Positions 34,341-52,662 of a stretch of DNA of 60,910 bases are shown here, one piece after another. Origin of the DNA: a virus; the IMG/VR virus record IMGVR_UViG_3300042557_001137, positions 1-60,910 of that record; one strand, written 5' to 3'. Position 1 is the stretch's first letter, and each line of letters opens with the position of its first letter. Position numbers and translations under genes: made by a program. The notes under the pieces were generated by a model, which saw only the letters and a list, made by a program, of their open reading frames with translations, did not search any database and was not told the origin of the DNA.

Positions 34341-35990
34341 TTATGAACTCATCGCGGATTTTTGGCGGGGTCCGCGAGCGATGGAGAGAAGTTTGTCCCG
34401 CCAGGACGGTACGTGGACGACAGGAGGCTGGAACGTAGAAAACTCGGCCATCATCAAGCCGATCCACGAGATCGCGTCTACTTGGTCGTCGTGCATACCG
34501 TTAGGAAACCGCAGCAGCTCCGCGATCATAGGGCCGGTGAATGAGGCATCGCGCGGGAAGTATACCTTACCCTGCTGCATTCGGCCTTGGATTGCACGCG
34601 CCCGGGCTTCTTTGTCCCGGCGACCGGTTTTGAGGTCTTTGAAGTACGCCTCGTACAATCCGCGTTCCCGGACCCGTTTCTCCAGAAAGGGGCCAAGCGC
34701 CATTTCGATGTGGCTCTTCTCGATGCCGACGATCGACGGCTTCCATTGGACGTACAGGTCAAGGATGCGCTCGACCAGCTCGAAGCCGTCGAACCGCCCC
34801 CGCACCACGTCCATGACGTACATGTCGTCCTGCTGGTTGATCCCGACCACCACCCCTACGCTGTAGTCGTTGCGGTCGTTCTTGCCGATCGCCAAGTCCC
34901 ACGCACAGTAGTAGCGCATCTGCTTCTGGTCGACGTCGTCCGGGCCGTAGTACTTGACCATGCTGCGGGTGAAGTACTGGCCGTCGTCAGCTACCGGGTT
35001 CTGTTGGTAGAGGGCCGACCAGTCCCGGGGGCCGACCGCCTTTTCGATCCGGCGCAACGCCTCGACGTTGTACCGCTCCGGGTGCAGGGCGTCGCCCGAC
35101 TTGCGGAACTCCTCGTCCTCCTCGGCGATCGCCGGGTACCGCACCACCTCCCACTCATCACCCCCCTGCGAAGCCGCCTTCAGCAGCCGGCCGGCTAGGT
35201 CGTCGTCATGCCAGCGGGTGAGGATGACCAGCACCCCGCCGCCCGGCGCCAAGCGGGTGTACGCGGTCGAGGTGTACCAGTCCCAGGTCGCGTCCCGGTT
35301 GTTCTGGCTCTCGGCGTCTTCGCGGTTCTTGATGGGGTCGTCGATCACGAGGACGTGGGCGCCTTTGCCGGTGATACCACCGCCCACACCCGCCGCCACG
35401 AACCCACCCCCGGCCGTGGTCAGCCACGCCTCAGCGCTTTGGCTGTCCGGATCCAGACGCGTCTTGAATATCGTCTTATAGGAAGGCTCACGTAGTACCT
35501 GACGCACCTTACGGCTAAAACCCATCGCCAGAGAACCCGAGTACGAACAGCTGATGAACTCGTGCTCAGGGTTGCCGCCCAAGTGCCAAGCCGGGAACGC
35601 GACCGACGCCAAGGTCGACTTTCCGTGGCGCGGCGGTAGAAAGAGCATAAGCCGTGGCGACTTTTGGTCCACCACGTCGCGAGAAAACTGCTCAAGCCGT
35701 TTGCAGACATCTTTGTGCACCCACCCTGCGTTGTAGTCCGGGTTGAACTTCTCGACGAACGGCAACAGCCGCTTACGCGACAGGATACGCTCGGCGAGCT
35801 CCTTTTGAGCGCGCTCTTTGATGGATAGTTCCGGGGCTTCGGCCGGGGCCTGACCAGCGGCCTCCGGTAACCGCTCGGCGTCGTCGGCTTTGCAGTAGAC
35901 GCACAGGCCGTCCACTTCGGAGGAGTACAAGGTCGCCGGATGGCTGTTCTTGCACCGCTTGCACCGGCGCGTCGGCACGGCCTCGGTCAT
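34341..35990 (-). CDS. terL: Terminase large subunit (TerL)
   Basis: A 549-residue DNA-packaging motor. Walker A-like LPPRHGKSTLA (about 118-128), Walker B VLVIDDPI (213-220), and a nuclease Asp in YYCAWDLAIGKNDRND (D365), with further acids in HDDQVDAIS near the C-terminus. The N-terminus carries a zinc-ribbon-like CxxC...CxxC (C10, C13, C30, C33), which is unusual. It sits downstream of TerS, overlapping by 4 bases, and the portal gene follows. Confidence 0.95.
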   Translation of the reverse strand: MTEAVPTRRCKRCKNSHPATLYSSEVDGLCVYCKADDAERLPEAAGQAPAEAPELSIKERAQKELAERILSRKRLLPFVEKFNPDYNAGWVHKDVCKRLEQFSRDVVDQKSPRLMLFLPPRHGKSTLASVAFPAWHLGGNPEHEFISCSYSGSLAMGFSRKVRQVLREPSYKTIFKTRLDPDSQSAEAWLTTAGGGFVAAGVGGGITGKGAHVLVIDDPIKNREDAESQNNRDATWDWYTSTAYTRLAPGGGVLVILTRWHDDDLAGRLLKAASQGGDEWEVVRYPAIAEEDEEFRKSGDALHPERYNVEALRRIEKAVGPRDWSALYQQNPVADDGQYFTRSMVKYYGPDDVDQKQMRYYCAWDLAIGKNDRNDYSVGVVVGINQQDDMYVMDVVRGRFDGFELVERILDLYVQWKPSIVGIEKSHIEMALGPFLEKRVRERGLYEAYFKDLKTGRRDKEARARAIQGRMQQGKVYFPRDASFTGPMIAELLRFPNGMHDDQVDAISWIGLMMAEFSTFQPPVVHVPSWRDKLLSIARGPRQKSAMSS

Positions 35991-36502
35991 GAGGGTTCCG
36001 GCTCCAGGTACGCCGGATCGCGGCCGGAGAGCTTGAGGAGATCGGCGTCGGACATCCGCTCCAGCTGAGCGGTGTTGACGTTGATGTTGATCTGGGTGGC
36101 GTTGTCTGGCGCCGCTAGGCCGTGCAGCTTGACCAACGAGTCGGTGGCGTTCTTCATCTCGGTCGAGGTCGCCGCAGCGTTGTACGCTTCTAGGTACATC
36201 TGATGGGCCTGGACCCGGGTGAACCGCACCTCTTCGCGCATCTGCTCGCGGAAGTATTCGATCGCCTTCAGCACGGCTGGCCGCTTGGAAGCAGCAAGCG
36301 CGGTCTCGGCGCTGGCGTACCCGGCGGCTCGGCCAGCGGCCGCTACTGACATTCCACGGACGATGTACAGCACCAGCCGTTCCTGCTGGATGGTCAAGTC
36401 CCCGAGAGTAAGCCCCATGTAGGGCATGAGGGACTGGAACTCGACTTGAGCGAGCTCGTCGTCAGTGGACCGAGGTTCCTGGTCCGGCAAGGATTTCGTC
36501 AT
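35987..36502 (-). CDS. terS: Terminase small subunit (TerS)
   Basis: About 171 residues from MTKSLPDQEPRSTDDE. The ATG at 36502 has GGAG just upstream. A helix-turn-helix-like region (about 50-85, GMSVAAAGRAAGYASAETAL) is typical of TerS DNA recognition, followed by helices (about 90-140) and a C-terminal strand-forming segment (ININVNTAQLERM) that can contact TerL. It overlaps the 92-residue gene by 41 bases. Confidence 0.85.
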   Translation of the reverse strand: MTKSLPDQEPRSTDDELAQVEFQSLMPYMGLTLGDLTIQQERLVLYIVRGMSVAAAGRAAGYASAETALAASKRPAVLKAIEYFREQMREEVRFTRVQAHQMYLEAYNAAATSTEMKNATDSLVKLHGLAAPDNATQININVNTAQLERMSDADLLKLSGRDPAYLEPEPS

Positions 36503-36740
36503 CGTCTCCAAAGAGGTCCTCGTCAAGATAGACAAACACCGGCGCTCGATCGCCAAGCTTGCTGAGGGAGATCTTGGTCAAAAAGTCTTCAAGCGTCGCG
36601 GCTTCGCCTTCAAGTGAGCGGACGATCGCTTCGGCAAGGTGGCCGTCGTAGACCAGTACCTCATTGCCGCCGCGATACGCGGTGCCGATGACGGCCTGGT
36701 CGAAACCCTCCAACGCAATGACCTGGAATACCTGTGACAT
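36462..36740 (-). CDS. Small acidic protein beside terminase, unknown
   Basis: The protein has 92 residues starting MSQVFQVIALEGFDQAVIGT. It is alpha/beta with acidic ends (FVYLDEDLFGDDDEILAG). Conserved-looking strand VLVYDGHLAEAIV is visible. It is between the HNH protein and TerS and overlaps TerS by 41 bases. It may assist packaging, but nothing proves it. Confidence 0.65.
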   Translation of the reverse strand: MSQVFQVIALEGFDQAVIGTAYRGGNEVLVYDGHLAEAIVRSLEGEAATLEDFLTKISLSKLGDRAPVFVYLDEDLFGDDDEILAGPGTSVH

Positions 36741-37955: not shown

Positions 37956-38264
37956 ATGAACAAAATCTACCAGCCGATCACCGTCGCCCCCGGCCGCCTC
38001 GTGGCCTTCGTCAAGGCCCGCCGCGACCCCAAGGAGTTCAGAGACCCCCACTACCAGGGTGTGATGGCGCTGCCCGATGGCACGCGTTTGCAGGTCTCGA
38101 TATGGATCGACACCACGCGCGCCGGCAAGCCCATCATCAACGGCTCTGTCCGCCCTGAGCCCGTCCGCACGGCGCATCACCTCGACTCGGCCGAACTCGC
38201 CAAGTCCGAGGACATCCCGCAGCACCCGGGCGCCAAGGTCGACCCCAACTTCGACCTGTTCTGA
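37956..38264 (+). CDS. Small soluble protein, unknown
   Basis: The protein has 102 residues starting MNKIYQPITVAPGRLVAFVK. It is beta-rich, with PHYQGVMALPDGTRLQVSIW and strand-turn-strand IINGSVRP, ending in acidic VDPNFDLF. A strong Shine-Dalgarno AGGAGG is present in the duplicated leader. The fold could be an OB-like small barrel, but no family is recognised. Confidence 0.65.
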   Translation: MNKIYQPITVAPGRLVAFVKARRDPKEFRDPHYQGVMALPDGTRLQVSIWIDTTRAGKPIINGSVRPEPVRTAHHLDSAELAKSEDIPQHPGAKVDPNFDLF

Positions 38265-38271
38265 TCCTCCT

Positions 38272-38298
38272 AGCCCTGAGCACGGCTCAAAACTGCTC
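38272..38298. repeat. 27-bp leader repeat, copy 2
   Basis: Same as 37894-37920 except one base in the loop. It precedes the two-TM gene at 38330. Confidence 0.65.
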
Positions 38299-38329
38299 CC
38301 TTCTCTCAACCAGTCCAGGAGAACTGACC

Positions 38330-38485
38330 ATGTCCAGCAAGATCCGCACCTCGACCATCTTCGCGATGGCCGCCAACATGACCTTCATCGCTTCGTTCTT
38401 CGCCGGCGAGATGGCGCTGCCGATGCTCTTCATCACCGCCTACGCCGGTCTGGCCGGGCTCACCTTCGCCACCCTCGGCGACTGA
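38330..38485 (+). CDS. Small two-helix membrane protein
   Basis: The protein has 51 residues, two hydrophobic segments (about 8-24 TIFAMAANMTFIASFF and 27-46 MALPMLFITAYAGLAGLTF) joined by AGE, with a basic start MSSKIR. AGGAGAACTGACC precedes the ATG. Function unknown; holin-like size but far from the lysis genes. Confidence 0.65.
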   Translation: MSSKIRTSTIFAMAANMTFIASFFAGEMALPMLFITAYAGLAGLTFATLGD

Positions 38486-38495
38486 GGTACGCACC

Positions 38496-38837
38496 GTGAT
38501 CTACCAACCTGCTCCGCCGAACTTCCTCGAAGAAGCACGCGCGCTGATCGAGGCCCACAACATCAACAACGCCTACGAGTTCATCGAATACGCGATGAAC
38601 GACCGTCTCCACGGAGACGAGTACTTCGCCGCTGTCGCCGGCTTGGTGACCTGCGAAATCACCCCATTCTGTGTCCGCGTCGGTGACTCCCTCATGGACC
38701 AGGACGAATGGCTGGAGGGCGCCCTCAGCGGCATCAAGGGCGATGACCTCACCGTGTGGGTGGCCAAGTTCCTCGACCGCCATCACGAGTTCCTCGTCGA
38801 TGAGCTCGGCGACGACATTGACGTCGTCCCGGTCTGA
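38496..38837 (+). CDS. Acidic helical protein, unknown
   Basis: The protein has 113 residues with a GTG start. It is helical and strongly acidic at its C-terminus (HHEFLVDELGDDIDVVPV). A helix with Ala/Glu spacing near the N-terminus (EEARALIEAHNINNAYEFI) is seen. It is the last gene before the terminator at 38846. Acidic charge suggests a DNA-mimic or protein-binding role, only as speculation. Confidence 0.6.
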   Translation: MIYQPAPPNFLEEARALIEAHNINNAYEFIEYAMNDRLHGDEYFAAVAGLVTCEITPFCVRVGDSLMDQDEWLEGALSGIKGDDLTVWVAKFLDRHHEFLVDELGDDIDVVPV

Positions 38838-38845
38838 TCCCTCAG

Positions 38846-38888
38846 CTGCAGGGTCAAGGCCCCCAAGCCTTGGCCCTGCAGTTCTTTT
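38846..38888 (+). terminator. Strong intrinsic terminator
   Basis: CTGCAGGGTCAAGGC (38846-38860) pairs with GCCTTGGCCCTGCAG (38867-38881) as a 15-bp stem, with a 6-base loop and TTCTTTT after. It ends the first small-gene transcript of the rightward arm before the gene-free region. Confidence 0.9.
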
Positions 38889-38989
38889 CAGCGTAAGAGG
38901 GGGACCACGTGCCGGGGGGAACGAGCAACGTGCCCCGAGCCCCCATCCACGATCGGTGTGCCGTGCTCATCGGCCCACGCCCCTTGGAC

Positions 38990-39045
38990 CGTGGCCACCG
39001 GTGCTTGCGCCGTGGTCCGTGGCCACCGGTGCTTGCGCCGTGGTC
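38990..39045. repeat. 28-bp direct tandem repeat
   Basis: Two perfect copies (38990-39017 and 39018-39045) of a unit starting CGTGGCCACCGGTGCTTGCG and ending CCGTGGTC. The first 8 bases recur partly after the second copy. GC-rich with a GGTCCGTGGCCACCGG core that is nearly palindromic. Confidence 0.85.
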
Positions 39046-39067
39046 CGTGGACATCGGCCGACGTGGA

Positions 39068-39352
39068 TGTGTACCGGCTGTGTACCGCCGGTACCAGTTC
39101 GTGGTACACAGAAGTGGTACACATTAACCCCTTGCCACGTAAGGGTTTTTCAGCACTTTCACAAAGTGTGTACCGCGAAAGGGGGGGGTCTCAAACATGA
39201 CGAAATACCCTATATGTGTTTTCTAACACATAGTCGTTTTTCAATTTACCCCCTAAAATGGTGGTACACATGGTACCAAATTGATTCTTAAGGAAAAATG
39301 GTGGTACACAAGGTGGTACACAAGCCACTGTTCCTGGTACACATGGTACACA
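39068..39352. repeat. Iteron cluster, ten [T/C]GGTACACA sites
   Basis: The 9-base TGGTACACA reads forward at 39102, 39115, 39262, 39302, 39314, 39335 and 39344. TGTGTACCG, its reverse complement with one changed base, occurs at 39068, 39079 and 39167. GGTACC palindromes occur at 39090 and 39272. Copies are in both orientations with spacings of 9 to 147 bases. Confidence 0.85.
39213..39232. repeat. Hairpin in AT-rich DNA
   Basis: TATGTGTT (39213-39220), loop TTCT, AACACATA (39225-39232), a perfect 8-bp stem in a locally AT-rich stretch between iterons. Confidence 0.7.
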
Positions 39353-39385
39353 CCACTGTATTTCCATACAGACATTTGTATTTTC

Positions 39386-39408
39386 GCAACAGATTCTGTT
39401 GCTTTAAT
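39386..39408 (+). promoter_or_regulatory. Candidate extended -10 promoter with overlapping hairpin
   Basis: TGCTTTAAT (39400-39408) fits an extended -10 (TGnTATAAT, 5 of 6). The 7-bp inverted repeat GCAACAG-ATT-CTGTTGC (39386-39402) overlaps its upstream end, an arrangement typical of an operator. The first gene it could drive starts at 39488. No good -35. Confidence 0.4.
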
Positions 39409-39487
39409 ACAACAAAGGCGTGTCCCCCTTCGGGGTCCACGGTCAGAGGGTTATTTTGTCGTTTATCCCTCATAGGAGTGTGAATCG

Positions 39488-39730
39488 ATGTATCAGACCT
39501 ATGACGAGTTCTTCCGGCAAGTCGAACAACGGATCCTGGCCACGAACCCCGTGGCTATGGACGAGCCCGCTGTACTCAACCGCATGCTGGAGATCCTCTA
39601 CCCGCCCAATTCCTACCACCACTTCATGCTGCACGGCGCCGAGTTCGACGACGTGGTCGAGGCTGCAGTCAACGACTGCACCGCAAACCTCTCCGTCAAC
39701 ACCATCGCCGGCCTGCTCAGGAGCCACTGA
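39488..39730 (+). CDS. Small protein, unknown, first in the middle operon
   Basis: The protein has 80 residues starting MYQTYDEFFRQVEQRILATN, helical with an aromatic turn (PPNSYHHFMLHG) and an Asp-rich C-terminal part. It is first after the control region. No family recognised. Confidence 0.65.
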   Translation: MYQTYDEFFRQVEQRILATNPVAMDEPAVLNRMLEILYPPNSYHHFMLHGAEFDDVVEAAVNDCTANLSVNTIAGLLRSH

Positions 39731-39732
39731 CC

Positions 39733-39981
39733 ATGAGCCACGGACACCCGGCCGAGGTTCGTCGGATCTTCTACGTCCTTGGACCTTTCGGCTACCGGCG
39801 CGCGTTCCGCTCCATCCGCAAAGCCCTCAAGTGCGGCGAGTCGACCGTCTCCATCTCCCAGAAGCTCAGACGCAACCCGTTCGAAATCAACCTGCAGAAC
39901 CGAGACCTTGTCGCATTCGTCCGCCACGTGGCCACCCGCCACTACCGGGCTGAACTCCGTCGCTACCACTCATACCGTTGA
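39733..39981 (+). CDS. Small basic protein, probably nucleic-acid-binding
   Basis: The protein has 82 residues and is strongly basic (many Arg and His, HVATRHYRAELRRYHSYR). A helix-turn-helix-like pattern is seen at AFRSIRKALKCGESTVSISQ, with a Cys in the turn. It follows the previous stop by 2 bases. A DNA- or RNA-binding regulator is a reasonable guess. Confidence 0.6.
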   Translation: MSHGHPAEVRRIFYVLGPFGYRRAFRSIRKALKCGESTVSISQKLRRNPFEINLQNRDLVAFVRHVATRHYRAELRRYHSYR

Positions 39982-40008
39982 CCTTCACCTAGCAAAGGAC
40001 AAACCACC

Positions 40009-40242
40009 ATGAACCAGAACTTACTGACCATTGCCCGCATCGCTTTCGCCGACGCCCAGATCGAGTGGGCCAAGGCCCTCAAGAGCTTCGACTACGACGC
40101 CATGTACGCCGCCGCTTGCGCGGTCTGCATCGCCGAGCGCGATGTTTGCCGCCTCCAGTTGGAGGAGGACTTCTTCCTCGCGACCCGGCCGTGGCCTTCT
40201 TCCACTCAGGCCGTCGCCTGGCAACCCGCTCAGGTGTCGTGA
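40009..40242 (+). CDS. Small helical protein, unknown
   Basis: The protein has 77 residues starting MNQNLLTIARIAFADAQIEW. Helical with aromatic and Ala-rich middle (YDAMYAAACAVCIAERDVC) and a Pro/Gln end. Three Cys residues. It ends overlapping the next start (TGATG). Confidence 0.6.
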   Translation: MNQNLLTIARIAFADAQIEWAKALKSFDYDAMYAAACAVCIAERDVCRLQLEEDFFLATRPWPSSTQAVAWQPAQVS

Positions 40243-40442
40243 TGAGAGCGCTCCACATCGCCGAGTGGCGCGAGTACTCGCAAGAGTGCGCGCACCAAGC
40301 CCGCGAGGCCCGTTACGCAGCCGAGAACGTCTGCCCCAGTTGCGGGGGCACAGGCGATCACGGCGTAGAACCTGACACCGGTTGCCTGTTCGTCTGCTAC
40401 AGCTGCGCCGGCACCGGCAAGTACTTTTTCTCTCTCACCTGA
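40242..40442 (+). CDS. Small DnaJ-type zinc-finger protein
   Basis: The protein has 66 residues. The C-terminal half has two CxxCxGxG-type repeats, CPSCGGTG (about 31-38) and CYSCAGTGK (about 52-60), as in the Cys-rich domain of DnaJ. They probably hold one zinc ion. There is no J domain. The start at 40242 shares the A of the previous TGA. It may bind unfolded protein or act as a small zinc adapter. Confidence 0.7.
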   Translation: MRALHIAEWREYSQECAHQAREARYAAENVCPSCGGTGDHGVEPDTGCLFVCYSCAGTGKYFFSLT

Positions 40443-40464
40443 CCATAGCCAAGGAGAACCATCC

Positions 40465-40707
40465 ATGTCTGAAATCAACAAGTCCAAGAAGCGTCAGTCG
40501 ACCGTCAACGGTCCGTATTACTCGGCCCAGTTCGGCAACACCTTCAACAACAAGGTGCGCGCTCTGGCCAAGAAGCTCGCTGAGCTGACCGCCGCTTTCA
40601 AGCGCGCGATGGAGAAGGGCCAGTCCAAGAAGGCCGACAACATCCAGGAGCAGATCAAGCTCGTGGAGGCCGCCCGCAAGTCCATCCCCCTCAAGCGGGG
40701 TGGCTGA
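40465..40707 (+). CDS. Small basic helical protein, unknown
   Basis: The protein has 80 residues, Lys/Arg-rich at both ends (NKSKKRQSTVNGP and KSIPLKRGG) with a long helix between (about 28-70). AAGGAG precedes the ATG. Could bind nucleic acid. No family recognised. Confidence 0.6.
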   Translation: MSEINKSKKRQSTVNGPYYSAQFGNTFNNKVRALAKKLAELTAAFKRAMEKGQSKKADNIQEQIKLVEAARKSIPLKRGG

Positions 40708-40898
40708 TGAAGATCACCATCCGCGATCTGTCGGGCGACACGCCGACCGAGACCTGCGAGTTGCCGGACAACTTCGAGCAGGTGCTGATGACCCTCCTTC
40801 GCGGGGCCCACTCTGTGGGCTTCCGTCGAGGGGTGGTCGTCGGCGCCGTCTCGACCTTGATCGGTGCGGTCGCGTTCTACATGTTCTCGGGAGCCTGA
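40707..40898 (+). CDS. Small membrane-anchored protein
   Basis: The protein has 63 residues. N-terminal 40 residues are soluble alpha/beta (MKITIRDLSGDTPTETCELP), and the C-terminal 22 form one hydrophobic helix (GVVVGAVSTLIGAVAFYMF). It overlaps the upstream stop by 1 base. Confidence 0.65.
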   Translation: MKITIRDLSGDTPTETCELPDNFEQVLMTLLRGAHSVGFRRGVVVGAVSTLIGAVAFYMFSGA

Positions 40899-40899
40899 C

Positions 40900-41094
40900 A
40901 TGACCAAGAAATGGGTGCCAGAAGCAGCTGTTGCTCACCGTGAGTCTCTCATGATTCTGGTCAGAGTAAATGAAGCTATCCATCACTATGGCCTGGAAGG
41001 ACGCGCTTACGAGTACGACATGAAAAACGATTGCGTCGTGGTTTGGGCCACAGACACAATCACTCCTTACGTCTACGTCCGGATCTACCCCTGA
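40900..41094 (+). CDS. Small alpha/beta protein, unknown
   Basis: The protein has 64 residues starting MTKKWVPEAAVAHRESLMIL. A helical start is followed by strands (NDCVVVWATDTITPYVYVRI). It follows the previous stop by one base and is the last gene before the terminator at 41106. Confidence 0.6.
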   Translation: MTKKWVPEAAVAHRESLMILVRVNEAIHHYGLEGRAYEYDMKNDCVVVWATDTITPYVYVRIYP

Positions 41095-41105
41095 CCACTT
41101 CTATG

Positions 41106-41138
41106 CCCCCATTGAGAGTTACTCAATGGGGGTTTTTT
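41106..41138 (+). terminator. Strong intrinsic terminator
   Basis: CCCCCATTGAG (41106-41116) and CTCAATGGGGG (41122-41132) form an 11-bp stem around AGTTA, followed by TTTTTT (41133-41138). Confidence 0.95.
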
Positions 41139-41152
41139 CTTGCGAGGTCACA

Positions 41153-41350
41153 ATGAACGAGCGTTCCGACATCTCGACCGAAACCCTTATCGACAGACTT
41201 GGCCACGCTGCCTGGCACTACGCAGAGATGCGTGCTGAGCAAGCGCGTGCCAACTTGGTTGCGAAGCAGGCTGAACAGAAGTACATCGACGCGTACAACA
41301 CAGTCTTGTCTCGCATCCAGAACCTCGAAGAGTACGTGAAGAACACATGA
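41153..41350 (+). CDS. Small helical protein, unknown
   Basis: The protein has 65 residues starting MNERSDISTETLIDRLGHAA, almost all helix with a heptad-like part (about 20-60) rich in Ala, Gln and Glu. Probably a coiled coil. It follows the terminator, so it needs a promoter within the terminator-to-gene gap or readthrough. Confidence 0.6.
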   Translation: MNERSDISTETLIDRLGHAAWHYAEMRAEQARANLVAKQAEQKYIDAYNTVLSRIQNLEEYVKNT

Positions 41351-41547
41351 CCACGAACCACGAATACCACATCACGCTCAAGTGGTACGTCGAAGACGTC
41401 CACAGGGTGCGCCCAGATCTCGATGATCGGCAAGCACGAGAAGTGCTCAGGTACATCCGCGACAACCACAGCGCAGATGTGGGTGTGAATTGGTACGTGA
41501 TCGAATGTGCAGCTAGTGATTTGTTTCCAACAAAGGACGACGAATAA
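41347..41547 (+). CDS. Small alpha/beta protein, unknown
   Basis: The protein has 66 residues starting MTTNHEYHITLKWYVEDVHR. Strand-helix-strand pattern with HLKWYV-like aromatic content (about 8-15) and a DRQAREVLRYIRDN helix. It overlaps the previous gene by 4 bases and the next by 1. Confidence 0.6.
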   Translation: MTTNHEYHITLKWYVEDVHRVRPDLDDRQAREVLRYIRDNHSADVGVNWYVIECAASDLFPTKDDE

Positions 41548-41726
41548 TGGCCATTGAACCCCGGATCATCCACATAGACTTAGACATCACCACTATCGAC
41601 GAAGATACTTACGACACCGTGCTTCGAGAATTCATGCTCGTCATCGACCGTATGGGGCTTGATGGCGACAAGTTCTCATACGATAAATGGCGGATCACTT
41701 GCGTAGCAGAGGAAAGCACTCCATGA
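41547..41726 (+). CDS. Small acidic alpha/beta protein, unknown
   Basis: The protein has 59 residues starting MAIEPRIIHIDLDITTIDED. It shares the A of the previous TAA and overlaps the next ATG by 4 bases. No family recognised. Confidence 0.6.
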   Translation: MAIEPRIIHIDLDITTIDEDTYDTVLREFMLVIDRMGLDGDKFSYDKWRITCVAEESTP

Positions 41727-41986
41727 CTGTCTCCGTCACATCATCCATCTGGGTAGTGAAAGCTACGGAACAAGTTTCAGGCGACTACGACGTCGTGTTC
41801 CTCATGTCTTTCAATACCCGCAACGGTGCAAAAGCCGTGTACGACTACGGCAGGCGCAAAGTACCCAAACTGTATTGGCAGTACGACGCTATGCCTTTTC
41901 TCGACAACAACGACTACGACTACGCCATATACAACATCGACGAATTGAGCGAAGGGTTCTACAACGACAAGATCGAACCCGTATGA
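41723..41986 (+). CDS. Small acidic, aromatic-rich protein, unknown
   Basis: The protein has 87 residues starting MTVSVTSSIWVVKATEQVSG. Asp/Tyr-rich in its second half (NNDYDYAIYNIDELSEGFYN), strongly acidic, which suggests a possible DNA-mimic or inhibitor. No specific family. Confidence 0.6.
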   Translation: MTVSVTSSIWVVKATEQVSGDYDVVFLMSFNTRNGAKAVYDYGRRKVPKLYWQYDAMPFLDNNDYDYAIYNIDELSEGFYNDKIEPV

Positions 41987-42011
41987 ATCAGAACTCACAG
42001 ACACAAAAGCC

Positions 42012-42221
42012 ATGAACAGACATACTGAGATCAAGCCTGGAGCATATCGCGCCCTGTTCCTTGACGCACTTGCCAAGTATCGCGAAACAGCAGACCCTGC
42101 TGAGATCCCTGTCATCGATCATTACGTACGAACGCTTCAAAACCCCGACTACAAATTCGGAAAGATGACATACCACGGCCAAAAGATTTATGGCCCTGGC
42201 GAATTGTTCTTTCGTTCTTAA
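42012..42221 (+). CDS. Small helical protein, unknown
   Basis: The protein has 69 residues starting MNRHTEIKPGAYRALFLDAL. It has a helical N-terminus with a Tyr/Phe/Gly end (MTYHGQKIYGPGELFF). Between 41984 and 42012 there may also be a 9-residue frame. No family recognised. Confidence 0.55.
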   Translation: MNRHTEIKPGAYRALFLDALAKYRETADPAEIPVIDHYVRTLQNPDYKFGKMTYHGQKIYGPGELFFRS

Positions 42222-42234
42222 AGGAGAACTGACC

Positions 42235-42447
42235 ATGCCCCCCGATTTCTCGAAACTGACCACTACCGAACTGATGGACAAGCTGATCAACCAGGCTTAC
42301 GCAGTCGGCCGACTCAAAGCCGAAGCTGCTCACGCCAGGACTATGGCAGACCGGGCTCTATCTGAGTACGAAACGCTCCACACTGAAGCCCAGACTCGTC
42401 TGCACAACATGGCGGAGACGTTGGCCATCACATCGGGTAAACCCTGA
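42235..42447 (+). CDS. Small coiled-coil protein, unknown
   Basis: The protein has 70 residues starting MPPDFSKLTTTELMDKLINQ, with a long helix (about 12-65) rich in Ala, Glu and Arg. AAGGAGAACTGACC precedes the ATG. It overlaps the next gene by 1 base. Confidence 0.6.
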   Translation: MPPDFSKLTTTELMDKLINQAYAVGRLKAEAAHARTMADRALSEYETLHTEAQTRLHNMAETLAITSGKP

Positions 42448-42650
42448 TGGCCACTCGACAGTACATGGAGCGTTACATCGTCAGGTCCTACACCGAAGAA
42501 CTCATGAAGAGCAAAGCTGCACTGAAGTATTTCATTTACGAAGTGCTTCATTACGGGTACAGCGCTTCTCTTCCTACCAACGGTCCTTTGGACGCAATGG
42601 ACGATTACGAAGTGAAACAAGTCTATGACGATTACAGGGGAAGCAAATGA
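42447..42650 (+). CDS. Small alpha-helical protein, unknown
   Basis: The protein has 67 residues starting MATRQYMERYIVRSYTEELM, with aromatic-rich helices (YFIYEVLHYGY). It overlaps the next gene by 4 bases. Confidence 0.6.
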   Translation: MATRQYMERYIVRSYTEELMKSKAALKYFIYEVLHYGYSASLPTNGPLDAMDDYEVKQVYDDYRGSK

Positions 42651-42856
42651 ACAAAGACAAGCTTGAAAAAGTTGATTCTATGTTTTCCATATTTGCATCG
42701 ATCGTGATCATCGGAGCTGTTGTACTGGCGTTCAGCGCCAGCTACCGTGAGTCATTGCGCGCTAAAGGCGAAGCCAAGTTCTGCAATGAGCGCAATGGAG
42801 TGTTGTTGCGTAGCCACGAGGGCACCGTATGCGCCAAGCTGGAGATCGTCGACTGA
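42647..42856 (+). CDS. Small membrane-anchored protein with a CxxR-type tail
   Basis: The protein has 69 residues. It has a charged start (MNKDKLEKVD), one transmembrane helix (about 11-30, IFASIVIIGAVVLAFSA) and a soluble C-terminal tail with Cys in KFCNERNG and VCAKLE. Orientation is N-in, C-out by positive-inside logic. Confidence 0.6.
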   Translation: MNKDKLEKVDSMFSIFASIVIIGAVVLAFSASYRESLRAKGEAKFCNERNGVLLRSHEGTVCAKLEIVD

Positions 42857-43056
42857 CGACTTTTGTCGATCAAACCCTTGAACACTTGTACGAACAGTTA
42901 GCCGAGTCCCATCAGATATGGGAACAAGCCAACGAACAACTGAACTACGACGGGTCCATACCATTTGTCCAAGCAGAGAAGAAAGCCTGGTCCCGTGTAG
43001 TCAGGATTCAACGGTCTATCCTTCGTTTTGAACAAGCCACAAAGGACAACAAATGA
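42829..43056 (+). CDS. Small helical protein, unknown
   Basis: The protein has 75 residues starting MRQAGDRRLTTFVDQTLEHL. A CTG start at 42853 is also possible. Helical with Gln/Glu-rich stretches. It overlaps the upstream gene by 28 bases and the next by 4. Confidence 0.5.
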   Translation: MRQAGDRRLTTFVDQTLEHLYEQLAESHQIWEQANEQLNYDGSIPFVQAEKKAWSRVVRIQRSILRFEQATKDNK

Positions 43057-43241
43057 AGCCCAACAGCTACAAAGTCTTGCTCCATGCTGTCGAGATCGGT
43101 GTTGCTCTTGGCGTAAGCCGAGCTTTCAAACACGACAAAAACCCGTCTTTTGACCAGCTTACTGAGACCGTTGAACAAGCGATTGTCGACCAGATCTGCG
43201 AATGGTTCGAATTCGAACCGGATTTCAATTCACACAACTGA
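43053..43241 (+). CDS. Small helical protein, unknown
   Basis: The protein has 62 residues starting MKPNSYKVLLHAVEIGVALG. Hydrophobic helix at 8-24 could be amphipathic or membrane-associated, followed by an acidic C-terminus (ICEWFEFEPDFNSHN). Confidence 0.55.
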   Translation: MKPNSYKVLLHAVEIGVALGVSRAFKHDKNPSFDQLTETVEQAIVDQICEWFEFEPDFNSHN

Positions 43242-43257
43242 TCAGGAACCACTCATC

Positions 43258-43533
43258 ATGTCCACCCTCAACACTCCTATTTCCCTTTCTGATTACGACA
43301 CCCGTCTCCGATCGCACGACTGGTACTACCAGTATTCCGACAACCACGGCGTGTGGCGCCGGGGCGACGGCGAACGAACTGCTCTGGTCAACCGCAGCAA
43401 GGAATCTCCGGAGCACAAAGAGCTGTACGACGCCTGGGTCACGTACTTCTTTTCGGGCGACAATTTCGACAGCCCCAAGTTCACCCAAGAAGAGCGTGAC
43501 GCTGTGCGTCGTCGCTTGGGTGTCATCGAGTAA
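43258..43533 (+). CDS. Small tandem-paralogue protein, copy A
   Basis: The protein has 91 residues starting MSTLNTPISLSDYDTRLRSH. It contains DWYYQYSDN, a segment with Asp/Arg-rich polar stretch, and a helical HKELYDAWVTYFFSG part. It is homologous to the next protein (43545), which shares PISxSDYxTxL and DWYYxxSxN with the same spacing. This shows a tandem duplication. Function unknown. Confidence 0.7.
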   Translation: MSTLNTPISLSDYDTRLRSHDWYYQYSDNHGVWRRGDGERTALVNRSKESPEHKELYDAWVTYFFSGDNFDSPKFTQEERDAVRRRLGVIE

Positions 43534-43544
43534 GGCCGTGTTTT

Positions 43545-43859
43545 ATGGCTACTGATCCCGTTCCTATATCCATCTCTGACTACAACACCGCTTTGGAAAA
43601 CTTCGATTGGTACTACGACTTTTCAGAAAACCCTGATGAGCGCGACCAAAGCCGCCAACGCGCGGACGAGCTTTTTCGGATACGTGATCAAAGCGGTTTG
43701 CACCATTATCTTTACGGAATTTGGGCCATGTTCATGGCACACCATCTTTGTGAAGAAGACCTTCAAGAAGAGATCACTTGGGTGATGTCTGTTAGTCCTA
43801 GTACTTCACAGTTTGATATACATGAAGCTAAACAGATGCTGGAGGGCCTCTCAGAATGA
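43545..43859 (+). CDS. Small tandem-paralogue protein, copy B
   Basis: The protein has 104 residues, paralogous to the previous: PISISDYNTALENFDWYYDF aligns with the same region of copy A, followed by YLYGIWAMFMAHHLCEEDL. The C-terminal 25 residues are extra. It overlaps the next gene by 4 bases. Confidence 0.7.
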   Translation: MATDPVPISISDYNTALENFDWYYDFSENPDERDQSRQRADELFRIRDQSGLHHYLYGIWAMFMAHHLCEEDLQEEITWVMSVSPSTSQFDIHEAKQMLEGLSE

Positions 43860-44125
43860 ACACCGCCAAACTCGAAGCAGCTACAAGCAACAGCGTCGCT
43901 AACGCACGTTTGCTGCTTCGCTCTATCCAAAACCAAGTTGATTCTGACTGTTACATCGGTTCCGGTCCGCTTTCTTCCGCACAGCTTTTCAACGCTGCAG
44001 CCGACGCACACGAGCTTTTCTCTTTGTTGCTCCACGCAGCCAGTGGACGCGCTGTGCTAGAACAACGCGCATCCTTTCAGGATGCGCGGTCAGAAAATGT
44101 TGGTGAAGTCGGTAGCAAGGAGTGA
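43856..44125 (+). CDS. Small helical protein, unknown
   Basis: The protein has 89 residues starting MNTAKLEAATSNSVANARLL. Helical with a Ser/Ala-rich N-terminus and a His/Leu-rich middle (AADAHELFSLLLHAASG). A polar C-terminus. No family recognised. Confidence 0.55.
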   Translation: MNTAKLEAATSNSVANARLLLRSIQNQVDSDCYIGSGPLSSAQLFNAAADAHELFSLLLHAASGRAVLEQRASFQDARSENVGEVGSKE

Positions 44126-44129
44126 TTGT

Positions 44130-44297
44130 ATGCAACAGTTACGTCTTCCGTTCAAAACAGACATGATCCAGAGCATTGTTTACAAAGCCAAGGACGCTCT
44201 TGCGTACGTGGCCAAGCATCCTGGTGATCTGATCCTGGCTGTAATGCTCGTCATGCTGATCGACATCGAAGACGATCTTGAAAACCTCAACCAGTAA
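44130..44297 (+). CDS. Small membrane-associated protein, unknown
   Basis: The protein has 55 residues starting MQQLRLPFKTDMIQSIVYKA, with a C-terminal hydrophobic stretch (LILAVMLVMLIDI) followed by acidic residues (EDDLENLNQ). AAGGAG precedes it. Confidence 0.6.
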   Translation: MQQLRLPFKTDMIQSIVYKAKDALAYVAKHPGDLILAVMLVMLIDIEDDLENLNQ

Positions 44298-44308
44298 GGA
44301 TATCCACT

Positions 44309-44494: not shown

Positions 44495-45148
44495 ATGACC
44501 ATCAAAGACCAGTCTTTCATCCCCAACGTCCTCGGTTACACCGCCGAGAAAAACTCCACGCTCGGCCAGATCGCCCGTTTCGTCGAGACGCAGGCGGCTG
44601 ATTGCCCTCTCGAGCGCATTGCGTTGGCGTTCTTCTCGCTCCAGCGCGAACGCCAGAACGCCATCCGTTCCGAGATGGAGACCGGCGTCCCGGCTTCGGG
44701 CCCGCTGTTCAAGCCGGAGCGCTTGCTCAGCTTCGTCCAGAGCATGATGAACGGCGTCTGCTGGGCCGCGCGCCGTTTGTACGTCGCCAACGATCGGCAG
44801 GACGCCAACGACCTCGGTAACGGCATCGACTTCTCGGAGCAGGTCAGCGACTGGGTGGGCGTTCGCGCCAGCAACGACCACATCCCCGAGCTGGTCGACA
44901 GCGACTACTTGGCGCTCAACCGCCTGCACTCGCTGCTCGCGGTTAAGATGGGGTACCTGACCGACATCGCTCCGCTCTATCACTTCGAAGAGCGGGTTCG
45001 TGACGATCAGGGCAACTGGTACGTGGCCAAGACCTGCGGTTCGTTCGCCGAGGCGCTGCCGGTCATGGACGAGATCGTCGTCCGCCTGCAGCAGCAGTCC
45101 GAAGCCAGCGAAGTCGCCGACTTCATGAAGCAGCTCCGCGCCGCTTAA
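44495..45148 (+). CDS. Probably abundant early protein of unknown function
   Basis: The protein has 217 residues starting MTIKDQSFIPNVLGYTAEKN. Helical with ETQAADCPLERIALAFFSLQ, MMNGVCWAARRLYVANDRQD and a Gln-rich end helix. It has an AAAGGTACATACC leader and a much more GC-biased, host-like codon choice than the small genes around it. It is followed by its own terminator at 45167. These are signs of high expression. No family recognised. Confidence 0.7.
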   Translation: MTIKDQSFIPNVLGYTAEKNSTLGQIARFVETQAADCPLERIALAFFSLQRERQNAIRSEMETGVPASGPLFKPERLLSFVQSMMNGVCWAARRLYVANDRQDANDLGNGIDFSEQVSDWVGVRASNDHIPELVDSDYLALNRLHSLLAVKMGYLTDIAPLYHFEERVRDDQGNWYVAKTCGSFAEALPVMDEIVVRLQQQSEASEVADFMKQLRAA

Positions 45149-47746: not shown

Positions 47747-48745
47747 TTGCGTACTATCCGTCCTAAGCAGCTCAAGTCCGAGTTGCGTAGCAATGCAATG
47801 GCAGGCGTTGCCAGCATGATCTGGGGCCCGCCGGGCATCGGCAAGTCCCAGATGGTCTATCAATTCGCTTCCGACCTCAACGCGAAAGTCTTCGAGCTGC
47901 GTGCAAACCTGTTCGATCCTGTCGACGTTCGTGGTGGTCTTAAGGTCGTCGAAACCGAGAACGGCACTTACCGGACCAAATATGGCGTGCCGGAAGATTA
48001 TCCGGACACCTCGTATACGGGCACCGTCGTGCTGTTCATCGACGAACTGCCGAATGCGCCCAAGGCTACGCAGAACGCGCTTCTGCAGCTCATCCTGGAC
48101 CGTCGCATCGGTACTTACGAATTGCCGCCCAACACGATCTTGATCGGCGGCGGCAACCGGGCTCAAGACCGGGCAGCAGTTCACGAAATGCCAAGCACGG
48201 TCAAGAACCGTTTCGCGCATTACACCGTCGAGCCCAACATCGATGACTGGGTCGCATGGGCGTTGCACAACAACATCGACACGAGCATCACGTCGTTCCT
48301 GCGTTACCGGCCGCAATTGCTTCACAGCATCGACCAGCATGACTACGCGTTTCCGTCTCCTCGTACTTGGGAGATGGTCAGCCGCAAGCTGCCGTTCATG
48401 GACGACATGTTCTATGGCGTTGCGTCGTTGGTTGGCGACGGCCCGGCAGGCGAGTATCTCGCGCATCGTGCCATCCACAGCGATCTGCCGGACCTGGATC
48501 AGCTTTTGCTGTCTCCGTCGAGCACGAAGGTGCCGACCGACCCGTCAGCTCTGTACGCTGTGGCGGCAGCATTGGCCCAGCGTGCCACGCCCGCGACTTT
48601 CAGTTCGATCATGCGGTATTGCCGTCGGCTGCCGCGTGAATTCCAGGTCGTCCTTGTCCGTGACTGCGTAGCCAAGGACCGTGCGCTGATCACTGACCAG
48701 GCTTATAAGGACTGGTCGGCGATCCATTCAGACGTTTCGATCTAA
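47747..48745 (+). CDS. MoxR-family AAA+ ATPase
   Basis: The protein has 332 residues with a TTG start and AGGAGAA upstream. Walker A GPPGIGKS (27-34), Walker B VVLFIDELP (94-102), sensor 1 in ILIGGGNRAQ (131-140) and arginine finger region KNRF (153-156). These are MoxR/RavA-type chaperone ATPases, which work with a VWA partner to remodel a target protein. Such a partner, a VWA protein, is at 49458, with one unknown protein between. Substrate in the phage is unknown. Confidence 0.9.
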   Translation: MRTIRPKQLKSELRSNAMAGVASMIWGPPGIGKSQMVYQFASDLNAKVFELRANLFDPVDVRGGLKVVETENGTYRTKYGVPEDYPDTSYTGTVVLFIDELPNAPKATQNALLQLILDRRIGTYELPPNTILIGGGNRAQDRAAVHEMPSTVKNRFAHYTVEPNIDDWVAWALHNNIDTSITSFLRYRPQLLHSIDQHDYAFPSPRTWEMVSRKLPFMDDMFYGVASLVGDGPAGEYLAHRAIHSDLPDLDQLLLSPSSTKVPTDPSALYAVAAALAQRATPATFSSIMRYCRRLPREFQVVLVRDCVAKDRALITDQAYKDWSAIHSDVSI

Positions 48746-48760
48746 CATCAGGAGAACTAC

Positions 48761-49456
48761 ATGGCTTCTGTCCGCATGACGAACGACTTGCGTCGTTCGA
48801 TCCATCAGAAAGCGCTGACGGCGTTTGACGTCGCGCGTCCTGAACCCACGCCAAACGCCTTGCTTACCGAGCAAGTTCGCGACGGCATTCTCAACAGCTT
48901 GGCCTACAAGGTCATGAAGGAGACTTACGCCAACCAGCGTCAGCATTCGTTCAAGAGCTTGGGTGGGTACAACACTTGGGTCCACAGCGAAAACGAGTCT
49001 AAGGTCATCCTTCACAGCGACAACTCTTTTAACCACAACAAGCCGGTTTATAACAACACCCGCATGAACCTTGTGTTCAATCTTGTGCCGAGCATTCCGA
49101 TCTATCGTAACCGTGGTTCCTACCACATCGATTTTTATCACGAAGAGCTCCCAGCTGAGTACCGAGACTTGACTGGTCCTGGCTGCGTTGCGCTTTGCAA
49201 CGAGATCAGGGAGTACAACAACGAGCGTCATCAGTATTCCAGGAAGATCGAGCTGCTTCTTGACCAGGTCACTTCGGTCAAGCAGTTGCTCGAAGCTTGG
49301 CCGGCGGCTGAGTCGTTCGTGCCGTCCGAGTCCATTCAGCGCATGTACGTCAAGGTGACCCGCGCTGAACGAGCCAAGCGAGCTAAGGAAGCCGTCCAGT
49401 TCGACGAACCGGCGGTCAACCAAGTTGTCTTAACCGCTAAGATCATCGGAGCTTAA
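48761..49456 (+). CDS. Unknown protein between MoxR and VWA genes, possibly Nmad5-like
   Basis: The protein has 231 residues starting MASVRMTNDLRRSIHQKALT. The opening (MTNDLRRSI...) resembles the nucleotide-modification-associated domain 5 seen in some phages, but this is only a loose resemblance. C-terminal region is helical and Lys/Arg-rich (RAERAKRAKEA). Its placement in one operon, between the ATPase and the VWA protein, suggests it is the target or cofactor of the pair. Confidence 0.5.
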   Translation: MASVRMTNDLRRSIHQKALTAFDVARPEPTPNALLTEQVRDGILNSLAYKVMKETYANQRQHSFKSLGGYNTWVHSENESKVILHSDNSFNHNKPVYNNTRMNLVFNLVPSIPIYRNRGSYHIDFYHEELPAEYRDLTGPGCVALCNEIREYNNERHQYSRKIELLLDQVTSVKQLLEAWPAAESFVPSESIQRMYVKVTRAERAKRAKEAVQFDEPAVNQVVLTAKIIGA

Positions 49457-49457
49457 T

Positions 49458-50582
49458 ATGTCGGTCGAAAAGGCCATTGTCAAAGCACGTTCTCAACTTC
49501 TTCTAGACCAACCGTTCTTTGGCACTTTGGCCCTTCGACTTCGTGTCGTCCACGACGATACGGTCGAAACTGCTGCCACTGACGGAAAGCACTTCTATTA
49601 CAACGAGAAGTTCATTTCGAAACTGGACCCGTTCCAGTTGCGCGGACTGATCGCTCACGAAGTCATGCACTGTGTGTTCAACCACATGACGCGTCGCCAA
49701 CAGCGCGAGCAAGGCCGTTGGAACGCAGCTTGTGACTACGCCATAAACGGTTACTTGTTGCACAATGGGTTCATCTTGCCGAAAGGCGGCTTGCATGACC
49801 CGAAGTACAACGACATGACAGCCGAAGCGATCTACAATGTCCTGCCGGCATCCACTAAACCCTGCAAATGGGGCCTGGTACTGGATGCTGGATCTGGTTC
49901 TGGCGCCGACAACATTCAGTCTATTTCCCCGGCGCAGCTGGAAGCAGAGTGGCAAATTTCAATCGGGCAGGCGATTCAAACCGCCAAGTCCCGGGGCAAA
50001 CTGCCAGCCAATATGGAGCTGCTTGTCAGCGACATCTTGTCTCCGCGCATCGATTGGCGTACCGTCCTTTGGCCGTTCTTCACAGATCTCAGTCACGACA
50101 ACTACAATTGGCGTAAGCCTAACCGGGCTTACATCTCTGAAGACGAGTACTTGCCGTCTATGCTTGAAGAAGCATGCGGCAAGATTGCCGTGATCAACGA
50201 TTCAAGCGGTTCGATCAACGACTCGCAAGGCGCCCAGTTCATCTCTGAATTGGATGCCGTGTTGGAACAAGTACAGCCGTCTCAGATAGTTTACATCCAA
50301 GCCGATTGCGCGGTGCGCGATGTCAAGCTGTTTGAACGCGGCGATAGGATCAAGGATCAACAGCTTACGTTCAAGGGCCGTGGCGGCACGGCCTTCGCTC
50401 CTGCGTTCAAGTACCTCTTCGAAGAGCACCAGGATGTGCAAGCCGTCGTTTACTTGACGGATCTCGATTCTGGGGACTTTAACGAAGCCGAAAAGTACAC
50501 GACTTGTCCAGTGCTCTGGGTTTCGGTCGAACCCCGAGCCGTAGCCCCGTTCGGGACAACCGTGTACATGCCGCCAGTTTGA
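49458..50582 (+). CDS. VWA/metallopeptidase-type protein (DUF2201-like)
   Basis: The protein has 374 residues. N-terminal zinc-peptidase-like site HEVMH (67-71) in LIAHEVMHCVFNHMTRR. The C-terminal VWA-like domain has a MIDAS-type DSSGS (248-252) in AVINDSSGSIND and GRGGT (307-311). This is the usual layout of the putative metallopeptidase (DUF2201) plus VWA-like domain partner of MoxR ATPases in bacteria and phages. Start ATG is next to the previous stop with one base between. Confidence 0.85.
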   Translation: MSVEKAIVKARSQLLLDQPFFGTLALRLRVVHDDTVETAATDGKHFYYNEKFISKLDPFQLRGLIAHEVMHCVFNHMTRRQQREQGRWNAACDYAINGYLLHNGFILPKGGLHDPKYNDMTAEAIYNVLPASTKPCKWGLVLDAGSGSGADNIQSISPAQLEAEWQISIGQAIQTAKSRGKLPANMELLVSDILSPRIDWRTVLWPFFTDLSHDNYNWRKPNRAYISEDEYLPSMLEEACGKIAVINDSSGSINDSQGAQFISELDAVLEQVQPSQIVYIQADCAVRDVKLFERGDRIKDQQLTFKGRGGTAFAPAFKYLFEEHQDVQAVVYLTDLDSGDFNEAEKYTTCPVLWVSVEPRAVAPFGTTVYMPPV

Positions 50583-50850: not shown

Positions 50851-52662
50851 ATGCTTGTCACCCTTGATTTCGAGACGTACTACGACACCAAGTGCAGTCT
50901 CACCAAAATGACCACGATGGAGTACGTCAAACACGAGTCTTTTCTCGTGTGGGGCGTTGGCGTCAAAGTCGATTCTGAGCCTGCTGAATGGTATGGCGCG
51001 GATGAAGTTGAAGACGCTTTGCGCGCTTTCAACTGGGACGACGTCGATCTTCTGTGCCACAACACGATGTTCGACGGATACATCCTTGCTAGGTTGTACA
51101 ACATCAAGCCTCGCAGCTATTTGGATACAGCCGCCATGTCCCGTGGCCGGTTTCCGACCCAGTCTGCTTCATTGAAAGACTTGGCTGTTCGGTTGTTTCC
51201 AAACGACACCACCAAGCGCAAAGGCGAAGACCTTGTAAAAGCCAAAGGATTGGTCACTCTGCCGCCAGACGTCGAAGAAGCCTTGGCAAGTTATTGCATC
51301 AAAGACGTCGAACTTACGTACGAATCGTACTTGGTATTGGCCAAAGACTATCCGCAAAGCGAACTTGAGCTGATCAGCTTGGTAACCGACATGTTCTGCA
51401 ACCCCGTGTTGCATGTTGACTTGCCGCGTTTGGCCAAGTACCACGACCAAGAAATCGCCCGCACCCTGCAATCAATCGCCAATTCCGGACTTACTCGAGA
51501 AGAACTTGCCGCCAATCTGAAGTTCAAAAAGCACTTGGAAAGTTTAGGCATCACTCCGCCTACCAAGAAAAGCCTGACCACAGGTCAAATGATCCCAGCT
51601 TTTGGCAAAAACGACGCCGGGTGGAAACAGCTTTGTGCCATGTATCCGCAGCATCAAGCGCTTTGGGACGCCCGCACAGCTGTGAAATCACGCATCGCCG
51701 AGACCCGGGCTAAGCGCTTCATCGACGTTGCGCATTCTGACGGCACCATTAGCGTACCTTTGCGATACTACGCTGCGCACACTGGCCGTTTCGGCGGCAC
51801 AGAAAAGATCAATCTCCAGAACTTGCCTCGCAGCAGCGAGCTTCGCAAGTGCTTGATCGCGCCGCCAGACCATTTGGTCTACGTCGCTGACTTGTCCAAC
51901 ATCGAAGCCCGCATGCTTGCCTGGCTTGCAGGGCAACATGACCTGCTTCAGCAGTTCGCAAGAGGTGAGGATATATACAGTAACTTCGCCTCCAAGATCT
52001 ACAACAGACCCATTAACAAGCAGCACAACCCGACAGAACGTTTTGTCGGCAAAACGGCCATTCTTGGCTTGGGCTATGGCATGGGTCACAACAAGTTCAA
52101 GGCTACTTTGGAGTCTGGGGCTGCTGGCCCAGCTATGCAGATCTCGGAAAACGAAGCTCTCAACGTAGTCCAGACTTACCGTAGCACGTACGACCAAATA
52201 CCCGTGCTATGGGCCCGTATGGAAAACCTTTTGAAATTGTCTCTCCACCGAGACAATTACGGCGTTCGTTACCGAGACGTCCTAGAAGTTCAGGAGCGAG
52301 CGTTGTTTATGCCCAACGGGATGGCCCTGCGGTATGACAACTTACAAATGTCGCCCCAGGGACTTACGTACAACGTTCGCGGCTATGTACAGGAAATGAC
52401 TTACGGCGGCCGGATCACCGAGAACGTCGTTCAAGCCCTGTCACGCATTGTTGTCACCGATTCGATGCTACGCCTTAACAAGAAGCTTGACAACGGTAAA
52501 GTGGCTTTAAGCGTCCACGACGAAATTGTTGTAGTTGCTTCGGATGAAGATCCAGATGCTACAATGCAGCTGATTCTTAACGATCTTTGCACGCCACCGA
52601 CATGGGCCCAGGATTTGCCGCTTTCGGCTGAAGGCGGATACGACAGGATGTATAGCAAGTAA
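50851..52662 (+). CDS. DNA polymerase, family A, with 3'-5' exonuclease
   Basis: A 603-residue replicative phage polymerase. Exonuclease motifs: DFET (6-9), HNTMFDGY (N71, D75), YCIKD (148-152). Polymerase motifs: A at VADLSNIEAR (D347, E352), where the usual SQIELR is changed to SNIEAR; B at RFVGKTAILGLGYGMG (R397, K401, Y409); C at SVHDEIV (H556, D557, E558). No thumb-inserted TrxA-binding loop is visible. Its stop TAA overlaps the CsrA ATG by 1 base. Confidence 0.95.
   Translation: MLVTLDFETYYDTKCSLTKMTTMEYVKHESFLVWGVGVKVDSEPAEWYGADEVEDALRAFNWDDVDLLCHNTMFDGYILARLYNIKPRSYLDTAAMSRGRFPTQSASLKDLAVRLFPNDTTKRKGEDLVKAKGLVTLPPDVEEALASYCIKDVELTYESYLVLAKDYPQSELELISLVTDMFCNPVLHVDLPRLAKYHDQEIARTLQSIANSGLTREELAANLKFKKHLESLGITPPTKKSLTTGQMIPAFGKNDAGWKQLCAMYPQHQALWDARTAVKSRIAETRAKRFIDVAHSDGTISVPLRYYAAHTGRFGGTEKINLQNLPRSSELRKCLIAPPDHLVYVADLSNIEARMLAWLAGQHDLLQQFARGEDIYSNFASKIYNRPINKQHNPTERFVGKTAILGLGYGMGHNKFKATLESGAAGPAMQISENEALNVVQTYRSTYDQIPVLWARMENLLKLSLHRDNYGVRYRDVLEVQERALFMPNGMALRYDNLQMSPQGLTYNVRGYVQEMTYGGRITENVVQALSRIVVTDSMLRLNKKLDNGKVALSVHDEIVVVASDEDPDATMQLILNDLCTPPTWAQDLPLSAEGGYDRMYSK

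Follow-up and report, generated by a model that had tools for sequence, protein, structure and literature searches.

A two-armed array of short words as candidate replication origin of an uncultivated tailed phage, with words that seem to change in concert among its relatives

In the 60,910-base phage record that was analysed here as a whole (the window), ten copies of a short word lie in both orientations around an AT-rich centre. Comparison with other phages makes it very probable that this array is the replication origin of the phage. Our main reading, to which we give a probability of about 0.77, is that the origin is read by the phage's own PrimPol-SF3 protein (52910-55453), in the manner of the SaPI, P4 and NrS-1 systems. 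The array has a conserved place and layout in related phages, its words are clade-specific and have changed together, and arrays of the same kind stand beside replication helicase genes in other elements. The unexpected part of these results is that the word has changed repeatedly and in concert. The parts of the array and the features used with it are as follows, with the basis of each in parentheses.

38846-38888, plus strand: strong terminator-like stem, then a T run, closing gene 38496-38837 (direct reading of the sequence)
39068-39087, minus strand: left arm, outer pair of words TGTGTACCG at 39068 and 39079 (word count)
39088-39097, no strand: GGTACC site at 39090, a probable decayed word (sequence reading)
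39102-39123, plus strand: left arm, two words at 39102 and 39115 (word count)
39167-39175, minus strand: left arm, innermost word, turned toward the centre (word count)
39176-39261, no strand: AT-rich centre, putative unwinding element, with a hairpin at 39213-39232 (composition and alignment)
39262-39278, plus strand: right arm, innermost word, then the probable decayed word TGGTACACATGGTACCA at a 9-bp period (word count and direct reading)
39279-39298, no strand: spacer ATTGATTCTTAAGGAAAAA, kept in relatives having other words (alignment)
39302-39352, plus strand: right arm, four outer words at 39302, 39314, 39335 and 39344 (word count)
50851-52662, plus strand: family A DNA polymerase, preceding and adjoining the proposed initiator gene (domain match)
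52910-55453, plus strand: PrimPol-SF3 (DUF5906/VapE-like) protein of 847 aa, the proposed initiator (domain and fold matches)

The first-pass annotation had described a ten-copy array in both orientations, and its coordinates and orientations were confirmed: counting over the entire record gave ten exact copies of YGGTACACA at 39068-39352, seven on the plus and three on the minus strand, and zero copies in the rest of the window. Dinucleotide shuffles contain 0.57 copies per window on average and three at most. An assembly artefact is excluded because the array is present with 100% identity in the contigs L048-L051, which come from other metagenomes. A nucleotide search of the array region against the phage collection returned chance matches only. 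The centre has an AT content of 60% compared with an average of 44%, and the 60-bp stretches at 39189 and 39357 equal the window's AT-richest stretch of that length. The array thus shows two features of SaPI/P4/NrS-1-type origins, a group of short words of both orientations within one non-coding stretch and an AT-rich part between two arms. The perfect hairpin that had been noted at 39213-39232 is indeed present and reads TATGTGTT-TTCT-AACACATA. Two GGTACC sites, also noted before, were found at 39090 and 39272, and six more copies occur elsewhere in the window; both sites in the array look like decayed words (CGGTACCAG and TGGTACCAA), the second one lying exactly 9 bp after a perfect word.

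The description of the surrounding transcripts is borne out in part. Their being bounded by terminators holds for the left side at least, where the stem and T run at 38846-38888 stand behind the gene ending at 38837. Three further terminator-like sites (39129, 39262 and, on the minus strand, 39432) compare with 0.9 expected. The proposed nearby promoter found no support, as a search at the array for sigma-70 promoter-like sites detected none. GC skew has no inflection at the array and is uninformative here, because gene strand and arm coincide. Immediately to the left, imperfect CCGTGGTCCGTGGCCACCGGTGCTTGCG repeats occupy 38985-39060, and similar ACCGTGG/GGTCCACGG runs flank the arrays of relatives. 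Around and behind the array (37956-44300), about 20 small ORFs are nearly without relatives, even in comparison with phages that are 70-87% identical in other genes; judged by this pattern, the stretch appears to be a hypervariable early region.

Relatives were gathered by TerL, and further contigs through the DUF5906 protein. Most of those with DNA covering the place of the array, including the cultured phages KPP25 and phiR18, carry 5-14 short words there, in both orientations. The words vary by clade (TGGTACACA, CTGCACACA, CGACACACA, CCTGTTACA, TTCGTAACA and others, about a dozen in all), and in a common reading direction nearly all of them finish with ACA; word assignment was partly by the most frequent repeated k-mer per locus, so that rare variants are uncounted. 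The closest relatives by TerL (85-87%) have no TGGTACACA arrays and carry 5-14 copies of CTGCACACA in both orientations at the same place, while in more distant relatives the word is once more TGGTACACA, or else GTGGAACAT, GTGGAACCA or TGTAACA. Contigs reached via the DUF5906 protein added CGACACACA, TGTCTCACA, CTGGCACACA, CGCGCACA (weak), CCTGTTACA and CCTGCTACA. In most arrays the innermost words face outward in opposed senses and flank an AT-rich centre of about 80-95 bp, and the words often form tandem pairs with a period of 8-9 bp. On the TerL tree, five word groups require 5 word changes compared with 20 in shuffles, which means that the words track descent. The window lies inside a clade otherwise made up of CTGCACACA phages and TGGTACACA is scattered over the tree; TGGTACACA may be the ancestral word. 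In L213, L163, L243 and other contigs, repeats that contain GGTACACA recur at a 9-bp period in one orientation; these were regarded as coding repeats and not considered further.

The cultured Kochitakasuvirus phages KPP25 and phiR18 are related to the window by TerL (42%) and by the DUF5906 protein (30%) and likewise have a word array in a gap, with seven TTCGTAACA-type words in 676 bp. They differ from the window in the word, in the position of the array beyond the first five early genes and in the presence of DnaA boxes. In the Pseudomonas phage KPP25 the array lies at 26394-26747 (L263:8395-8748), close to a DnaA box; the annotation of the two phage records shows no array. The Aeromonas phage phiA008, which TerL places among the relatives, lacks a word array of this kind, and its origin may be built differently. 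A long AT-rich gap in this phage (L264:2811-3227) holds an imperfect CCCTCTAGA..CTTTTTT inverted repeat.

Perfect DnaA boxes (TTATCCACA) were found within 250 bp of 17 of the 19 distinct CTGCACACA arrays, a count of lowered weight since these arrays are kin, and of both Kochitakasuvirus arrays. Despite the kinship, this neighbourhood points to replication. For the window, initiation driven by DnaA was rejected, as no DnaA box was found at its own array.

Alignment of the window's array with those of two close relatives, L266 and L275, suggests how the words change. The left half of the centre (39176-39261) is kept in L266 and L275; all three arrays have a common centre core, which reads CGAAA.GGGGGGGTCTC.AACATGAC.AAA.AC in most of them, and they share the spacer ATTGATT..TAAGGAAAAA. 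At matching positions, however, the window has TGGTACACA, L266 has CGACACACA and L275 has CTGCACACA. Because centre and spacer are kept while the words differ, it seems that the array was retained and its words were altered together, rather than the whole array having been replaced. Such concerted change would be expected from a shift in the preference of a single protein that recognises every copy. We tentatively propose that the origin word has been switched in concert repeatedly, with the unwinding centre retained and the initiator little changed, and that specificity lies in very few residues or in another reader protein; we hold this to be possible, with the odds somewhat against it. Switching could be driven by escape from competitors sharing the origin, from satellites or from origin-directed nucleases. 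Selection for iteron changes by an origin-directed nuclease is described for the PLE satellites of the Vibrio phage ICP1 (PMC8263062), and for this reason word switching may mark an arms race here as well.

Arrays of the same kind were also found outside the lineage. When viral contigs were scanned for the array core, 33 loci came up; similarity in TerL, TerS, HNH or MoxR assigns 22 of these to the lineage and leaves 11 others. Among the latter, a PrimPol-VapE gene ends 69 bp before the array in L283 and 21 bp before it in L310, a DUF927 gene with a Cch-type HTH stands 8 bp before a GGTACACA array in L292, an ORF of equal size lies at the same distance in L312, and a DUF3987 gene precedes the array of L196 by 76 bp. 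In L297 the words are inside a lambda-O-like gene; the remaining loci are L285, L287 and L298 with three words each, the fragment L295, and L301. A separate scan added L187/L325, where 21 bp separate a DUF5906 gene from the array behind it. In all five cases with a helicase gene (L283, L310, L292, L196 and L325) the array is 3' of it. The association is not circular, because the loci were chosen by word pattern and not by gene content; the numbers are small, and the genes scanned were the largest near neighbours. The same core gave 12 matches in bacterial genomes, mostly with few copies. Small GGTACACA clusters adjoin tyrosine integrase genes at L314:4460-4566 and L316:4342-4452 and are possibly integrase arm sites. 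None of the bacterial matches tested adjoins a replication helicase, and with their few copies and the two integrase neighbours we treated them as chance or as other systems.

These comparisons lend good support to the earlier suggestion of an origin. The earlier statement that no initiator is recognised was not borne out. The middle part of the protein at 52910-55453 matches DUF5906 and the NrS-1 helicase, with VapE-like just at the cut-off. At the N terminus the fold is similar to that of AEP primase-polymerases, which make up almost all of the top hits (best E 3e-3). The C-terminal 136 residues give a confident model of a small domain, for which winged-helix matches are weak and the fold search returned no significant match. 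The element thus encodes an SF3/D5/VapE-type helicase with a primase, as SaPI/P4/NrS-1-type elements do. The DUF5906 protein and the array co-occur in the window, L084, L095, L115, L127, KPP25 and the contigs found through this protein; the DUF5906 match is absent from some long array-bearing records (e.g. G044, 47.6 kb), which are possibly incomplete. Upstream of the polymerase gene, the stretch 47747-50582 encodes a MoxR-like ATPase (47747), an Nmad5-like protein (48761) and a protein matching PHROG 1314 (49458), which are conserved in most relatives. The basic protein at 39733, which had been put forward as the binder, has no relative in the array-bearing phages tested, no PHROG and no Pfam family above the cut-off, and was rejected as a conserved binder.

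From these observations we infer that the array acts as an origin, which protein is its initiator, that the centre opens and that replication is bidirectional. The PrimPol-SF3 protein would bind the words of both arms, probably via its C-terminal domain, and form two oppositely facing assemblies. These would open the AT-rich centre between the arms, where the protein may load as two hexamers. Synthesis would then be primed both ways from the point at which the structural arm, running leftward, meets the early arm, running rightward.

The origin might instead be read by another protein of phage or host, with PrimPol-SF3 recruited afterwards, which we consider unlikely, though it is the strongest of the alternatives. 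A candidate is the 217-aa protein at 44495-45148, member of a fast-evolving family and the first conserved gene behind the array. In the L189, L042, L043, L032 and L039 contigs its relatives follow the array at a distance of about 0.3-2 kb, and they show faster divergence than the DUF5906 protein, in which no word-reading residues were found: among 20 proteins, no clear set of residues co-varied with the word. However, no relatives of the 217-aa protein were found in the array-bearing contigs L084, L191, L197, L200, L240 and L038, it has no known DNA-binding domain that we could find, and elsewhere the same arrays adjoin Rep-type helicases.

An operator array, through which a phage repressor would govern the two divergent arms, was the other half of the first-pass proposal and, on a non-exhaustive search for repressor genes, is now disfavoured as very improbable. 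It would fit the position where leftward and rightward transcription part, and the change of word from one close relative to another, since immunity specificities can switch in the same way. Operators or stoperators would be expected as dispersed sites with an integrase/repressor module, whereas all ten sites form one 285-bp cluster, no tyrosine integrase was found in the integrase search, no sigma-70 promoter-like site overlaps the array, and the arrays of unrelated elements adjoin replication helicase genes. The least probable reading is a packaging (pac) site that the small terminase would recognise. In its favour, the terS gene (35987-36556) is only 2.5 kb away from the array, and in relatives too the two are a few kb apart at most. 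Against it, the same word array stands beside replication helicases in unrelated contigs, the array of KPP25 lies past the first five early genes, and the layout matches the P4 ori and crr.

With an origin read by PrimPol-SF3, the uncultivated lineage and the cultured Kochitakasuvirus phages gain a precise candidate replication origin, and proteins currently annotated as DUF5906 or hypothetical a likely role. About a dozen clade-specific words with related initiators would form a natural series on origin reading by self-loading helicases, in which origin specificity is seen changing in all copies together.

Among known systems, the multiple short iterons of SaPI origins are read by the C-terminal domain of Rep, a self-loading helicase, apparently as two hexamers (PMC7581432). 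SaPI Rep origins and the iterons of SCCmec Cch2 (PMC7581432) are like the array in their multiple short, element-specific repeats and in a self-loading helicase of the D5/VapE/DUF927 kind as reader. The SaPI origin, however, is directly behind the rep gene, while the array of the window is 13.6 kb from the proposed initiator gene, and the window belongs to a tailed phage that itself encodes a polymerase A. The annotated record of P4 has type 1 repeats (GGTGAACA) in ori and crr, 8-mer words ending in ACA in both orientations; in crr, directly 3' of the alpha gene, outward-pointing words surround an AT-rich stretch. Opposed layout and ACA endings are thus shared, whereas in P4 the sites are split into ori and crr kilobases apart, with fewer words per site. 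The P4 alpha protein is a primase of another type than the window protein.

The helicase domain of the PrimPol of the Nitratiruptor phage NrS-1 is the closest solved relative of that protein. We found 11 mixed-orientation GGTTACAC-type words directly 3' of the PrimPol gene (L282:17061-17378), inside a small annotated ORF; the array layout is of the same kind, and differs from the window in the word and in lying beside the PrimPol gene. The parts of the NrSPol work that we consulted describe an 8-nt start site, TTTGGTTA (PMC8718748), and contain no description of this word array. One copy of the start site overlaps a GGTTACAC-type word, and it is the one exact copy in the NrS-1 record searched here, compared with two counted for the genome in PMC7102993. 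Origins beside the initiator gene are also seen in L283, L292, L310, L325 and L196. By analogy, the array of the window resembles the SaPI, P4 and NrS-1 origins but sits apart from its proposed initiator gene, and for this reason we regard it as a probable variant layout of this type.
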